From Holophaga sp. (lineage in GTDB: Bacteria > Acidobacteriota > Holophagae > Holophagales > Holophagaceae): a DNA stretch of 8,207 nt. This document shows, one piece after another, positions 3,398 to 8,207 of the stretch (position 1 is the first letter of the stretch; each line of letters begins with the position of its first letter). A model generated the notes under the pieces. The model did not search any database, had not been told where the DNA came from, and was given only the letters and a program-made list of their open reading frames with translations. The stretch spans positions 1 through 8,207 of the forward strand of contig JAUYES010000123.1 of NCBI GenBank assembly GCA_030691225.1, written 5' to 3'. The position numbers and the translations under genes were made by a program.

Positions 3398-4777
3398 ATG
3401 ACGCAACGCACCAACGTGGTTCTTCTTGCTGCCCTGATTACCGCATCTGCGGGAGCCCAGGATGTGAGCGTGTATGGCACCACCATGGCCCAGATGTGGA
3501 AGCAGGATGTTCCTGGCTTTGATAAAGCCAGCTATGCACCGGCCACTCAGTTCCTAGGCATTGATGCAACCAAGCTTGGTAGTGAAGCGCTATCCCTGCA
3601 TCTCTTTGGGTGGGGCAGGGCCGATTTGGGCGATGCCACTTCGATGGGCAAGAAGTCCGATGGCAACTTGACCTACGGCTACCTGCATTATCGATTTGCC
3701 GAGGCCAATGCTGAAATCAAGGCTGGACGGTTCGGCATCAATCAGGGCGCCGGAATGGAACAGGTCGACGGCATCAGCGCACGGACCGATCTGAAACACG
3801 GCTTCGTGGTGTCTTTCTTCGCGGGCAAACCCGTTCTCTACAAGAGCCAAGATCCTTTAAGCCAGAAGGATTACGAATTCCAGCACGATGTCATCTTTGG
3901 CGGTCGGGTTGGTTGGCGGCTTTCAAAAATGGGCGAGATTGGAATCTCCTACCTTCAGGACGGATCCACGGCAGCCAAGGATCTTCCTATTCCCTCCGCA
4001 GTGGATTACTCCCGCCGGCAAGTCGGCGCCGATATTCGCTTTGTCCCAGTCGCTGCCATTGATTTCATGGGGCGCACCCTCTGGGATGTGGCCAATCATC
4101 CCGAGCCCATCAGTGGATCTGCGCCTTCCCGCATTGCCGAGCACGATTACACGATGTCGGTGAAGATCGCGCCCCTCTTTTTAATGACAGGCAATTTTAC
4201 CGAACGAAACTTCCATGCCTATTTTGCAGGCACGAACATGCCCTCCTTGTTCCGCCAGGAAGAGCGCGGCAAGCATCGCGGCTACGGTGGCAAGGTCCTG
4301 CTAGGTTCGACGTCGTCCCTGTTAGTGACGGCTGATTTTCGAAGCACGAACCGGGATTCCTTCGGCGAGACCAATCGCTTTGGTGGAGATATTCGCTGGA
4401 CGGGCATGGACTCCAAGTTCCAGGCCGGTTTCGGAGCCCATCGCGTAATCGCCCAGAATGTATTGCAGATCGATGGTCGGGTGCCTAGCTACAGCCTTTC
4501 CCATCGTGAAATCCGCGCCTGGGTGATGTATGAAACGGGTCGCTATTCCGCGAGTTTGGATGGCATTCATCAGAGCTTCGACGACCAACACAATCCGAAC
4601 CTGAATGAGAAAAAATCCCAGTCGGAATTTGTCGCGTCTCTTGGGGCGCGCCTCACGCCCAGCGTGAAAGTCTCTGGGGATCTCACCTACGGGGACAATC
4701 CGTTCTTCAAAAAAGATGTGCGTGCGCTTCTGCGCGCGGAATACCGATTTTCCATGGCTCGCAAAGGAGGCAAGTAA
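3398..4777 (+). CDS. Outer-membrane beta-barrel (porin-like) of a porin-cytochrome conduit
   Basis: A 459-residue protein with a short Sec signal peptide (residues 1-20, cleavage likely after ASAGA before QD). The rest is alternating amphipathic strands rich in Gly, Tyr, Phe and Trp, for example YGYLHYRF, VGWRLSKMGEIGISYL and SEFVASLGARL. A terminal beta-signal RALLRAEYRF is followed by an eight-residue tail. It contains no cysteine and no heme motif. The start is supported by AGAAGAGG (3384-3391), 6 nt before the ATG. Heading an operon of three multiheme cytochrome lipoproteins, it plausibly plays the part of MtrB in Shewanella or the Omb/Ext porins in Geobacter: an outer-membrane sheath through which cytochromes pass electrons. 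It is much shorter than MtrB and lacks the N-terminal CXXC of that protein. The barrel call is strong; the conduit role comes from context. Confidence 0.85.
   Translation: MTQRTNVVLLAALITASAGAQDVSVYGTTMAQMWKQDVPGFDKASYAPATQFLGIDATKLGSEALSLHLFGWGRADLGDATSMGKKSDGNLTYGYLHYRFAEANAEIKAGRFGINQGAGMEQVDGISARTDLKHGFVVSFFAGKPVLYKSQDPLSQKDYEFQHDVIFGGRVGWRLSKMGEIGISYLQDGSTAAKDLPIPSAVDYSRRQVGADIRFVPVAAIDFMGRTLWDVANHPEPISGSAPSRIAEHDYTMSVKIAPLFLMTGNFTERNFHAYFAGTNMPSLFRQEERGKHRGYGGKVLLGSTSSLLVTADFRSTNRDSFGETNRFGGDIRWTGMDSKFQAGFGAHRVIAQNVLQIDGRVPSYSLSHREIRAWVMYETGRYSASLDGIHQSFDDQHNPNLNEKKSQSEFVASLGARLTPSVKVSGDLTYGDNPFFKKDVRALLRAEYRFSMARKGGK
4763..4770 (+). promoter_or_regulatory. Shine-Dalgarno of the pentaheme gene inside the barrel gene
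   Basis: A near-perfect AAAGGAGG lies within the last codons of the barrel gene, 7 nt before the ATG at 4778, which directly abuts the barrel's TAA (4775-4777). This points to translational coupling. It also explains the barrel's unusual tail after the beta-signal, since these bases encode part of RKGGK. Confidence 0.9.
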
Positions 4778-5248
4778 ATGAATCGGAGAATCGCTCTCCT
4801 CTCGTTTGCGATCACGCTCGGTCTGGGTGTTCTGACGGCATGCGGAATGGTGTCAACGGAAAAAAGTTTCGCTGCGGTTCACCCCCAGGAACTTGGAACG
4901 GGGCGGCCTTCTTGCTCGGTATGCCATGAGGACGAACTGAAGGGCTCCGGCAAGACCTACGCCGCCTTCAATCACAGTTCGACCTTCGTCAAGGATCACA
5001 AGGTTCAGGCTGGGCAGGATGCTAACGTTTGCGCCACCTGCCATTCCCAGTCCTTCTGCGCCGATTGCCACGCAGGGAAAACGGTCATGAAGCCTTCGAC
5101 CAAGCTAGGTGGCCGCCCCGACCGCGTGACGCCTCATCCTGGCAACTACCTAACGATGCACCGCATCGAGGGCAAGATCGATCCATCCAGCTGCTTCAAG
5201 TGTCATGGCCGAGCCAACAACGACAAGTGCACCTCCTGCCATCGGTAG
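4778..5248 (+). CDS. Pentaheme c-type cytochrome lipoprotein
   Basis: A 156-residue electron carrier. A type II signal peptide ends in the lipobox LTAC (19-22). The residue after Cys22 is Gly, not Asp, so outer-membrane sorting is expected. There are five CXXCH heme sites: CSVCH (46-50), CATCH (85-89), CADCH (94-98), CFKCH (139-143) and CTSCH (151-155). Hemes 2 and 3 are separated by only four residues and hemes 4 and 5 by seven, giving close packing. Exactly five other histidines exist (35, 66, 74, 120, 128), enough for bis-His ligation of all five hemes. It starts immediately after the barrel stop codon and is probably co-translated with it, which makes it the best candidate for the cytochrome tied to the pore. 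Which membrane face it occupies cannot be told. The C-terminal block, HRIEGKIDPSSCFKCHGR and following, is of a kind familiar from small metal-reducer cytochromes. Confidence 0.92.
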   Translation: MNRRIALLSFAITLGLGVLTACGMVSTEKSFAAVHPQELGTGRPSCSVCHEDELKGSGKTYAAFNHSSTFVKDHKVQAGQDANVCATCHSQSFCADCHAGKTVMKPSTKLGGRPDRVTPHPGNYLTMHRIEGKIDPSSCFKCHGRANNDKCTSCHR

Positions 5249-5278: not shown

Positions 5279-5902
5279 ATGAACAGAACCAAGTGGATGG
5301 CCGGGACATTTTTCGCGATGGCTTTTGCCCTGCTTGCTTTGGGCTGCACCAGTACCGCGGCCGATAACGCAGCCAAAGTCAGCCCTGCAGGGAATCACCC
5401 CAGTGGATGGATGGATACACATTGGGTCGAATACTCCAAAAAGCCTGCGCAGTGCACCACCTGCCACGGGTCCACCACGGATCCCGCCGCAGCGGGTGGC
5501 ATTTCCAAAGTCAGTTGCTTCACCTGCCATCACGATGGGCCGGGACATCCCGTGGGTTGGGCCGATCCCAGCCAGCACGGAAGGCTCGGGGCCATGGCCG
5601 CGCCGGGCGACCGCAGTGGGTTTGCGTATTGCGCCAAGTGCCACGGCGCCACCTACAAGGATGGGTATACCGCCACTTCCTGCATGGCTTGCCACACCAA
5701 GGCGCCGCACCCAAATAAACCCTGGGAAACCACCAACCCCTCGAACCCCATTCATAGCCGGGCCGATCAAGGGAACGCCGCCGAATGCTACAAGTGCCAT
5801 AAGGATGGTGCCAATTCCACCCGCAAGCCTGTCCCGGGAGCGCCGGTCGGTGCAGCGCCTGGTTGCTTTAACAACTCCATGTGCCACGACTACGGTCGAT
5901 AA
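5279..5902 (+). CDS. Multiheme c-type cytochrome lipoprotein, three diheme repeats (5 CXXCH + 1 CX5CH)
   Basis: A 207-residue predicted lipoprotein with the signal peptide ending ALGC at Cys23, followed by Thr. The five standard heme sites are CTTCH (59), CFTCH (80), CAKCH (118), CMACH (135) and CYKCH (170). A sixth, CFNNSMCH (196-203), has five residues between the cysteines. The protein reads as three repeats, each with a pair of non-motif histidines around an HP(x)W segment followed by two heme sites: HPSGWMDTH (H40, H48), HPVGWADPSQH (H90, H100), and H144 to H159. CX5CH falls at the second heme position of repeat 3. Six sites and six paired histidines suggest six bis-His hemes. The Shine-Dalgarno GAAGGGGA (5265-5272) is 6 nt from the ATG, and the gap to the pentaheme gene is 30 bp. 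The role is electron transfer within the conduit; I recognise no named orthologue. Confidence 0.9.
   Translation: MNRTKWMAGTFFAMAFALLALGCTSTAADNAAKVSPAGNHPSGWMDTHWVEYSKKPAQCTTCHGSTTDPAAAGGISKVSCFTCHHDGPGHPVGWADPSQHGRLGAMAAPGDRSGFAYCAKCHGATYKDGYTATSCMACHTKAPHPNKPWETTNPSNPIHSRADQGNAAECYKCHKDGANSTRKPVPGAPVGAAPGCFNNSMCHDYGR
5864..5887 (+). other. Non-canonical CX5CH heme-binding site
   Basis: These codons give CFNNSMCH, residues 196-203 of the second lipoprotein cytochrome, four residues before its C-terminus. The spacing of five between cysteines differs from CX2CH and from the known CX3CH and CX4CH variants. Its place in the repeat pattern equals that of CFTCH and CMACH in the first two repeats, which argues that it binds heme. 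Confidence 0.65.
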
Positions 5903-6018: not shown

Positions 6019-8207
6019 ATGAAACATAACCACTTGAGAGGCATGATCGGAGTCATCGCGACTTCCGCCATGGCCCTCATGCTCATCGGTTGCCGCGGCG
6101 AAGCCGGGCAGAACGGCGCCGCTGGCGCTGCTGGCACCAATGGCACGAACGGCACGAACGGTACCAACGGCACCAATGGCACCAGTATCCTTCCTGTCAT
6201 CGATGCGAACCTTTTCACTGCCGAGCAGTGGGCCGGTTTGAAACCCAACGTGACCGTCACCGGTGTGACGATCGTTGGCGGAAAGCCCGAAGTAACCTTC
6301 ACGGTCAAAGATCCTGCTGGCAACGTCATCAAGGGTCTGGATGGCTGGACTTCCAAGAATTCCACCGCCACCCTCTTTAGCTATCCCAACCTGTCCTTTG
6401 CGGTTGCGAAGCTGGTTCCGGAAAATGCTACGACCAAAGCGCCCAGCAAGTGGGTGAGCTACATCGTGAGCACCGTTCCCACCACCACTGCTGCTGCGGC
6501 TCCCACGCGTCCCTCCACGGACAACACGGGAACCCTGACCTACGATCCTCTCACCTACACCTACAAGTACGCGTTCTACCGCGACATCGTCGGGATGCAG
6601 GCTTGGCTTGATGCTCGGACCTACACCGGCAACAACCTCAAGGCCGATCTTGGTGATGTGTCCTTCGATAGCACCCTGGTGCATCGCCTCAGTGTGCAGT
6701 TCTCGGGCAATCTTCGCGGAACCGGTAGCAACACCGCCAACGGCACCACCGTTGCCACCTCTGTGGCAATGGAGAACCCCGTCAACATCATTTATGACTT
6801 CATCCCTGGGCCCACGAATGCCTGCGCACCGGTGCCTGCCGGTACCGATATCCGCGATATCGTTGCCATCGGCAAGTGCAACGAGTGCCACGACAAGCTC
6901 GCCTTCCATGGTGGCGGTCGCGTAGAGGCTCGCTATTGCGTGGTTTGCCATACCGACCAGCGCAAGTATGGCTACGCCGAAGCATCCACAACGGCCACTG
7001 GGTATAACCCGACTGAATCCCTTGGTGGAACTTCCACCGGGCAGCGCAAGATCAACGGTGGCGCTGTGGGCGATATGACCGCGATGGTCCATCGCATTCA
7101 TATGGGCACTGAGCTAGCCAAGGATGGCTACCAGTATGCTGGCGTGTATTTTGAAAAGCTCGGCTACTCCAAGCTTGAGGGCGGCCAGAAGCAGTGCACA
7201 ACGGGCCACGCCAACGTGCCCCAGGCCAACAACTGGAATAACAAGGCTAGCCGTCTCGCCTTCGGCACCTGCCACGAAGGTACGGACCTGAGCGTGGGCG
7301 CTTCTCACCACAGCACCACCCTGATCGCCGGTGATGCCAGCTGCCAGCTGTGCCATGCTCCTGGAGCAGGCGGGTCGGACATTTCCATTGCACACATGGG
7401 TCAGGACGTTACGCCTAACAACCCGACCGTCGCTGCGGGGCTCAAGACCCCTGTCTACGAAGTCAAGACCGCCACCGTGAGCGGTACCACCGCCACGGTC
7501 GTCTTTAAGATCACCATGGACGGCACGGCGATCACCTTGGCGGCCCCGGCTGCCACCGGCGTAGCCGCCCCCCTGGCCGGCTTCACGGGCAGCCCCAGCT
7601 TCCTGTTCGCCTACGCCCTGCCGCAGGATGGCGTCACCGCCCCCATTGACTACAACAACCTGGGCCGTGCCAATGGCCAGCCCCTGTCTGTCTCAATCGG
7701 GAAAACTAACACCAGTACGGGTCTTTTGGATTCAACACCGGGCACCGCAGGTAGCATCGCTGGGCCTGACGGCAGTGGCTACTACACGGCCACCGTTAAC
7801 AACGCCTTCCCGGCTGGTGCGACTCTGCGCTCCGTATCCCTCCAGGGCTACTTCACGCAGATTGCAGGCACCTGGGATTCCAACAAGGATGGCGTGGTTA
7901 GTGCTTTGGACCTGCTGACCTCTCCTCGCCACGCGGTTTCCGTGGTCAAGACTGTCACGGGCGACACCGCCCGCCGTAAGGTGATCGACTCTGAACGTTG
8001 TCAGGATTGCCACGAGTGGTTCATGGGGCATGGCGGCAACCGGGTGAAGGAAGTCCAGGTCTGCGTGACCTGCCACAACCCGAGCATCGTGACCTCCGGC
8101 CGCGGTATGCCCGATGCTGCGCTTGAAACTTTCCGCGCCGCCGGTAAGTTCACGGCCAAGGATATCTCCAACCTAGCCGCATGGGGTATCACTGTCCCCA
8201 ATCCCGT
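6019..8207 (+). CDS. OmcA/MtrC-family decaheme c-type cytochrome lipoprotein, 3' end outside window
   Basis: The first 729 residues are present. A lipobox LIGC (22-25) is followed by a collagen-like Gly-X-Y linker (27-56). Domain I is beta-rich (about 57-280). Heme domain II (287-446) has CNECH (287), CVVCH (307), CTTGH (393), FGTCH (415) and CQLCH (442), with family landmarks AFHGGGR and VHRIHMG. Domain III is beta-rich (about 455-655) and includes an EF-hand-like loop at 620-631. Heme domain IV begins with CQDCH (661) and CVTCH (682); three further hemes would be expected past the edge. In this family two five-heme domains separated by beta domains form a surface wire reducing metal oxides, electrodes or shuttles. 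CTTGH and FGTCH have each lost one cysteine, so only five of the seven visible sites are canonical. It probably lies at the outer face, next to the barrel encoded upstream. Confidence 0.93.
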   Translation, partial: MKHNHLRGMIGVIATSAMALMLIGCRGEAGQNGAAGAAGTNGTNGTNGTNGTNGTSILPVIDANLFTAEQWAGLKPNVTVTGVTIVGGKPEVTFTVKDPAGNVIKGLDGWTSKNSTATLFSYPNLSFAVAKLVPENATTKAPSKWVSYIVSTVPTTTAAAAPTRPSTDNTGTLTYDPLTYTYKYAFYRDIVGMQAWLDARTYTGNNLKADLGDVSFDSTLVHRLSVQFSGNLRGTGSNTANGTTVATSVAMENPVNIIYDFIPGPTNACAPVPAGTDIRDIVAIGKCNECHDKLAFHGGGRVEARYCVVCHTDQRKYGYAEASTTATGYNPTESLGGTSTGQRKINGGAVGDMTAMVHRIHMGTELAKDGYQYAGVYFEKLGYSKLEGGQKQCTTGHANVPQANNWNNKASRLAFGTCHEGTDLSVGASHHSTTLIAGDASCQLCHAPGAGGSDISIAHMGQDVTPNNPTVAAGLKTPVYEVKTATVSGTTATVVFKITMDGTAITLAAPAATGVAAPLAGFTGSPSFLFAYALPQDGVTAPIDYNNLGRANGQPLSVSIGKTNTSTGLLDSTPGTAGSIAGPDGSGYYTATVNNAFPAGATLRSVSLQGYFTQIAGTWDSNKDGVVSALDLLTSPRHAVSVVKTVTGDTARRKVIDSERCQDCHEWFMGHGGNRVKEVQVCVTCHNPSIVTSGRGMPDAALETFRAAGKFTAKDISNLAAWGITVPNP
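6097..6186 (+). repeat. Collagen-like Gly-X-Y repeat with a 9-bp tandem DNA repeat
   Basis: Ten consecutive Gly-X-Y triplets follow the lipidated cysteine: GEA, GQN, GAA, GAA, five copies of GTN, then GTS. The last six triplets (6133-6186) are a 9-bp tandem DNA repeat of the form GGNACNANN with third-base variation. It probably acts as a flexible or rod-like spacer lifting the heme domains off the membrane, and its copy number could vary by slippage in steps that keep the frame. Confidence 0.9.
7195..7209 (+). other. Degenerate heme site CTTGH (heme 3 of the OmcA/MtrC family)
   Basis: Residues 393-397 read C-T-T-G-H where the family normally has CXXCH. The fourth codon is GGC (7204-7206), one base from the cysteine codon TGC. 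The first cysteine and the proximal histidine are kept. Confidence 0.8.
7261..7275 (+). other. Degenerate heme site FGTCH (heme 4 of the OmcA/MtrC family)
   Basis: Residues 415-419 read F-G-T-C-H in the slot where relatives have a CGSCH-type site after an NW...SR stretch. The first codon is TTC (7261-7263), one base from TGC. The second cysteine and the histidine are kept. FXXCH/AXXCH single-cysteine heme attachment is known in euglenozoan mitochondrial cytochromes c. Confidence 0.8.
7876..7911 (+). other. EF-hand/dockerin-like calcium loop in the OmcA/MtrC protein
   Basis: Residues 620-631 read DSNKDGVVSALD, fitting the DxNxDGxxSxxD calcium-loop pattern with liganding residues at positions 1, 3, 5, 9 and 12. 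It sits in the connector just before heme domain IV. Calcium ions occur in solved OmcA/MtrC-type structures, but a loop of this kind here is not a feature I associate with the family. Confidence 0.6.

Follow-up and report, generated by a model that had tools for sequence, protein, structure and literature searches.

Two adjacent heme sites of an OmcA/MtrC-family cytochrome gene, the third and the fourth, are each reduced to a single cysteine in the consensus of a draft assembly, and neither lesion is repeated in any of the relatives listed. The gene lies at the end of the window (the whole stretch of 8,207 nucleotides that was analysed), which is one contig, C518, of a draft bin that totals 3.32 Mb in 837 contigs (76% complete, 4% contamination). 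We give about an even chance to the reading that it is a recently damaged allele, in which sites 3 and 4 would each lack one anchoring cysteine and neither heme would be covalently attached.

Results

The gene and its cluster

The features of the window on which the argument depends are as follows.

3398..4777, + strand: likely outer-membrane porin, from its place and order in the cluster
4778..5248, + strand: neighbouring cytochrome, five CXXCH in the sequence, all intact; cysteines as in the nearest relative throughout
5279..5902, + strand: neighbouring cytochrome, five CXXCH and one CX5CH in the sequence, all intact; cysteines as in the nearest relative throughout
6019..8207, + strand: OmcA/MtrC-family cytochrome gene (predicted decaheme), 5' part, 729 codons, running off the contig
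6877..6891, + strand: heme site 1, CNECH, residue 287, standard by sequence; column standard in relatives
6937..6951, + strand: heme site 2, CVVCH, residue 307, standard by sequence; column standard in relatives
7090..7101, + strand: H358 and H361, conserved histidines kept, predicted as candidate distal heme ligands; H in 153/153 other aligned sequences
7195..7209, + strand: heme site 3, CTTGH (TGC ACA ACG GGC CAC), residues 393-397, second cysteine lost
7261..7275, + strand: heme site 4, FGTCH (TTC GGC ACC TGC CAC), residues 415-419, first cysteine lost
7276..7278, + strand: D420E, near-invariant residue after site 4; D in 149/152 and E in 1 of the relatives listed
7342..7356, + strand: heme site 5, CQLCH, residue 442, standard by sequence; column standard in relatives
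7999..8013, + strand: heme site 6, CQDCH, residue 661, standard by sequence; column standard in relatives
8062..8076, + strand: heme site 7, CVTCH, residue 682, standard by sequence; column standard in relatives

The first-pass annotation had placed the gene at 6019..8207 in the OmcA/MtrC family, and the TIGR03507 profile bears this out with a score of 290.1 bits against a cut-off of 209.3, over profile positions 3-530 of 672; PF22113 matches as well. The predicted fold, whose mean pLDDT is 77 and drops in the heme domain, has MtrC and OmcA as its best matches. As the annotation had also stated, the reading frame runs on through canonical sites: it is open from the ATG at 6019 to the contig end without a single stop, and five of the seven sites that fall in the window are standard CXXCH, sites 8-10 of the family's ten lying beyond the contig end. 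Judged from its sequence, the protein is a member of the OmcA/MtrC family by descent with two damaged sites, and a decaheme cytochrome by family prediction only.

Named relatives of the gene include, among the matches listed, Geothrix and Holophagaceae records. The nearest relative listed, L033, is 91-92% identical, and the window aligns with its contig except for the gene of an MFS transporter; because the two contigs are otherwise collinear, the decaheme genes are taken to be orthologues. The exceptional MFS gene (742-2148, - strand) shares 50% identity with the corresponding gene of the relative, compared to ~92% for the flanking genes, and was likely replaced in place in one lineage. The gene at 3398..4777 matched none of the Pfam and NCBIfam profiles. 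We infer that the window genes constitute a porin-cytochrome cluster moving electrons across the outer membrane, in which the OmcA/MtrC-family protein, by family and gene order, is predicted to sit on the outer surface and to transfer electrons to extracellular acceptors.

Two heme sites with one cysteine each

The strings CTTGH and FGTCH are present at 7195-7209 and 7261-7275, in frame with the ATG at 6019, as first reported. In site 3 the codon at 7204-7206 is GGC (C396G), and in site 4 the codon at 7261-7263 is TTC (C415F); each differs by one base from the nearest relative, in agreement with the single-base changes proposed earlier. A weak pairwise match to Shewanella MtrF puts the lesions on its third and fourth CXXCH, so that their description as the third and fourth heme positions also stands. 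Both sites keep the proximal histidine and one cysteine apiece, and the near-invariant histidines are kept.

In the family alignment both positions are heme columns, with cysteine at residue 396 in 152/152 and at residue 415 in 152/152 of the other family members listed. The suggestion that sites 3 and 4 are not heme positions in relatives was rejected on these counts. The nearest relative, which was kept apart from the 152 sequences, has both sites standard and ten CXXCH in all. Within the limits of a draft-assembly consensus, from which alone the lesions are known, they are private to the window contig among the relatives examined.

Heme sites were scored in two sets of sequences. The first, with scoring proteins taken as the best 120 of 840 and with L001-L004, L026, L035, L036 and L041-L046 left out (own contig, duplicates, short or chance matches), comprises the 152 sequences, which are not independent because near-duplicates remain; over the ten heme positions 1493/1494 of their aligned sites are standard, and the lone exception belongs to L030, a short and badly aligned frame. 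The second set, gathered with a gammaproteobacterial member and consisting of the best 120 of 1979, has 1196/1198 aligned heme sites standard, both exceptions falling on adjacent sites 4 and 5 of one protein, P0207. Combined, the sets give 2689/2692 standard sites, with at least one protein shared (they overlap in at least L039 and P0122). A single-cysteine site at position 3 or 4 occurs in 0/152 and 0/120 relatives in these two sets of matches listed. A protein search with residues 372-432 alone returned 2 candidates, neither of which scored, and other carriers of the lesions may exist. By these alignments such lesions appear to be rare, and in both proteins in which they were seen they form neighbouring pairs. 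Our literature search for lost heme motifs or pseudogenes in metagenomes gave no match, and the accessible part of a paper on mutation rates of Geobacter cytochromes (PMC12977616) had no matching mention of pseudogenes, loss, cysteine or CXXCH. A literature search on multiheme cytochromes with single thioethers matched two papers, one of them PMC9028165, and led no further; PMC11727520 and PMC6299221 contributed nothing decisive.

Condition of the rest of the gene

That the gene as a whole is noisy or long dead was considered and rejected, given the lack of stops, the similar number of changes on the two branches and the small number of unseen residues. With eight outgroup genes, 45 base changes were assigned to the window branch and 52 to that of the relative, with a further 100 unclear. 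The first two codon positions account for 14 vs 21 of the assigned changes, and second-position transversions for 6 vs 2. The window protein has 63 amino-acid differences from the relative, of which four (Q200R, C396G, C415F and A717S) are unseen in other sequences, while the relative itself has seven such residues, the count being limited to columns with more than 100 residues. Between and near the lesions, N399, N407 and N408 are residues common in the family. Since the rest of the gene looks conserved, any damage would be young.

The breaks in conserved positions are nevertheless close together. The relative keeps 44 near-invariant columns, and the window breaks three of them, C396, C415 and D420, all by transversions and all within 25 codons; a spacing as tight as this occurs in 115 of 13,244 random triples of these columns. 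This closeness is not decisive because it fits a local error and a local biological event alike. For comparison, 25-codon windows were drawn from seven bin contigs, the contig under study included, with antisense frames kept but contig C250 (L062) and any match shorter than 600 bases excluded. As many transversions at an equally high share are found in 3.3% of them, and as many amino-acid changes in 22% of 7199, i.e., the local density of amino-acid change is ordinary.

Other standard heme motifs examined in the bin look intact. The two neighbouring cytochromes have all their cysteines in common with the relative, and in 20 further bin contigs, picked from a list of heme motifs, six frames hold 27 standard sites; the four near-motif strings in those contigs each begin with CH, like the tail of a standard site.

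A mixed bin

Contig C27 of the bin carries the 3' end of the same kind of gene, together with a fused ResB-CcsA gene. Its overlap with the window end, at homologous positions, has 45/65 bases alike, and on this count C27 was rejected as the missing end of the same molecule. The overlap implies that two or more related genomes contributed DNA to the bin; the window gene itself is represented by its 5' part. Searched with the DNA of the window tail, the bin gave the window itself and otherwise short, weak matches only, and among OmcA/MtrC N-terminal parts the window's was the only one found in this 76% complete bin. Two further contigs, C216 (L060) and C25 (L049), abut on one contig of the relative and are 93% and 84% identical to it, a gap that gives a further hint of mixed genomes.

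Heme attachment machinery

The fused gene on C27 (genome G000, locus L051) encodes a CcsBA-type synthase (ResB and Cytochrom_C_asm in a 785-aa frame) and adjoins the decaheme gene end; the relative has homologous DNA at that place (genome G002, contig C174, L086). CcmF was sought with the CcmF_C profile, which had no match in the 76% complete bin. These results suggest System II maturation in the bin, with the reservation that the bin is incomplete and that the window and C27 belong to different genomes. When a CcsBA was tested in vitro, the only cysteine variant of a 20-residue CXXCH peptide to which it joined heme was one with homocysteine in first position; serine-substituted CXXCH peptides received none, according to the part of the report consulted (PMC8112865). 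We infer that sites 3 and 4 would carry no covalent heme, because that CcsBA required both cysteines. CXXCK and CX15CH are examples of rare bacterial motifs that depend on dedicated synthases, as described in the sections of two papers that we consulted (PMC10663686, PMC3601427). The CcsBA found here is probably not devoted to the odd sites, since the relative with homologous DNA in the CcsBA region has ten standard sites.

A separate observation concerns the upstream 207-aa cytochrome, which ends in CX5CH (CFNNSMCH, window 5864-5887), a spacing outside CXXCH. The same ending (e.g., CFNNTLCH) is found in 23 locus rows, representing ~19 distinct places, beside OmcA/MtrC genes, in a scan that asked for the pattern itself and thus left homologues without it uncounted. 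Going by this recurrence, the ending is a conserved motif. The literature searched for CX5CH with heme gave no match. The CcsBA encoded beside the decaheme gene end could serve an unusual motif such as CX5CH.

Discussion

The first-pass annotation offered three readings of the two sites: attachment of each heme by one thioether, loss of two neighbouring hemes, and hemes held non-covalently. Loss of the two neighbouring covalent hemes fits best, because the lesions are private (0/152 relatives) and the bin encodes a System II synthase, a type reported to require both cysteines (PMC8112865); what speaks for single thioethers is the look of one motif. In the damaged allele, two single-base, in-frame changes would each remove one anchoring cysteine, the System II synthase of the organism would not join heme to sites 3 and 4, and both hemes would be absent or bound by histidines only, with the electron path through domain II weakened. 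Heme might still sit unattached at both sites because the near-invariant histidines remain, and non-covalent binding there is possible.

In MtrC, hemes 3 and 4 are placed on the long chain, so that one arm of the wire would be weakened or broken by the loss of both. The hemes of that protein are arranged in two crossing chains, one of eight and one of four (PMC4699859, consulted in part). For Shewanella OmcA, the part of a mutant study that we used (PMC9861303) reports that a heme 3 distal-ligand mutant was produced at <0.1 mg/L, with a disturbed spectrum and roughly half of the current, whereas yields of the heme 4 mutant were high. The protein is called functionally resilient there, in that of ten distal-ligand mutants only that of heme 10 abolished function, and by analogy this resilience may count against the damaged allele. 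More decay elsewhere might also be expected if hemes 3 and 4 were lost. The loss would be costly, since no other OmcA/MtrC N-terminal part was found in the bin (76% complete), and the clustering of three breaks, all transversions, is what a local error would give as well.

Such an error, with wrong bases near 7204, 7262 and 7278 in a short low-coverage stretch and a standard gene behind it, is possible at rather less than an even chance, and it is a strong rival because this draft bin is both fragmented (837 contigs, 76% complete, 4% contamination) and mixed. It would explain why the changes are carried by the window contig alone among the relatives listed, why three near-invariant columns are broken within 25 codons (115/13,244 random triples as close) and why all three breaks are transversions, which 3.3% of the 25-codon windows match. 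However, the window branch is no noisier than that of the relative (45 vs 52 changes), the frame is unbroken and local amino-acid change is ordinary (22% of 25-codon windows, in a set that includes antisense frames). Standard sites look intact in the two neighbouring cytochromes and elsewhere in the bin (27), and strain mixing alone would yield natural residues rather than new ones.

It is also conceivable, but unlikely, that the protein is a working variant, each heme being held by one thioether or by histidines alone with usefully shifted potentials. The proximal histidine and one cysteine persist at each site, together with the near-invariant histidines, and the gene is free of signs of decay. 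The FXXCH pattern occurs in nature as FAPCH of euglenozoan cytochrome c1 (PMC8262978, in the portion consulted), c552 became a b-type cytochrome when both its cysteines were replaced (PMC4451467, likewise in part), and P0207 contains another single-cysteine site, WVTCH at site 5, beside the histidine-less site 4. Against this, a single-cysteine site 3 or 4 occurs in 0/152 and 0/120 of the relatives listed, CcsBA rejected serine-substituted peptides (PMC8112865, as far as consulted), and the relative with homologous CcsBA-region DNA beside its decaheme gene has ten standard sites. The euglenozoan parallel depends on an enzyme of its own: the available part of PMC8262978 describes cytochromes c and c1 with AAQCH and FAPCH, made by KCCS, which was not detected outside kinetoplastids. 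The A/FXXCH pattern, moreover, keeps the second cysteine; the letters of site 4 match it, whereas site 3 keeps the first cysteine instead. A living extracellular wire with two adjacent single-thioether hemes, one on the first and one on the second cysteine, and with a System II synthase that is expected to require both as its maker, would be the most surprising outcome and is very improbable.

Returning to the damaged allele, if it is real it would be a natural experiment on two questions: how much of a decaheme wire is dispensable, and whether one cysteine is ever enough for a System II synthase. If the bases are in error, they show that hemes counted in draft bins should be backed by reads.

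Comparison with known systems

The euglenozoan single-thioether cytochromes c and c1 resemble the window in that FAPCH looks like FGTCH. They differ in being unrelated proteins with a different maturation enzyme, and site 3 of the window has lost the opposite cysteine. A closer likeness is the metagenomic OmcA/MtrC-family protein P0207, which within residues 288-327 has two adjacent damaged domain II sites, as the window does. These are different sites, site 4 reading CGSCP with the histidine lost and site 5 WVTCH, they are known from protein letters alone, and one further near-invariant residue is changed. Shewanella MtrC, MtrF and OmcA share the fold of the window protein at an identity of just 15-18%, and MtrF has standard CXXCH where the window protein has its damaged sites 3 and 4. 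Gene order is similar in a Geothrix contig (L034), with a porin-like gene, two cytochromes and omcA. The Geothrix-like OmcA/MtrC cytochromes (TIGR03507) have in common with the window the sequence family, the domain order, and the porin-like gene and two small cytochromes; they have both cysteines at sites 3 and 4, whereas the window gene has lost one at each.
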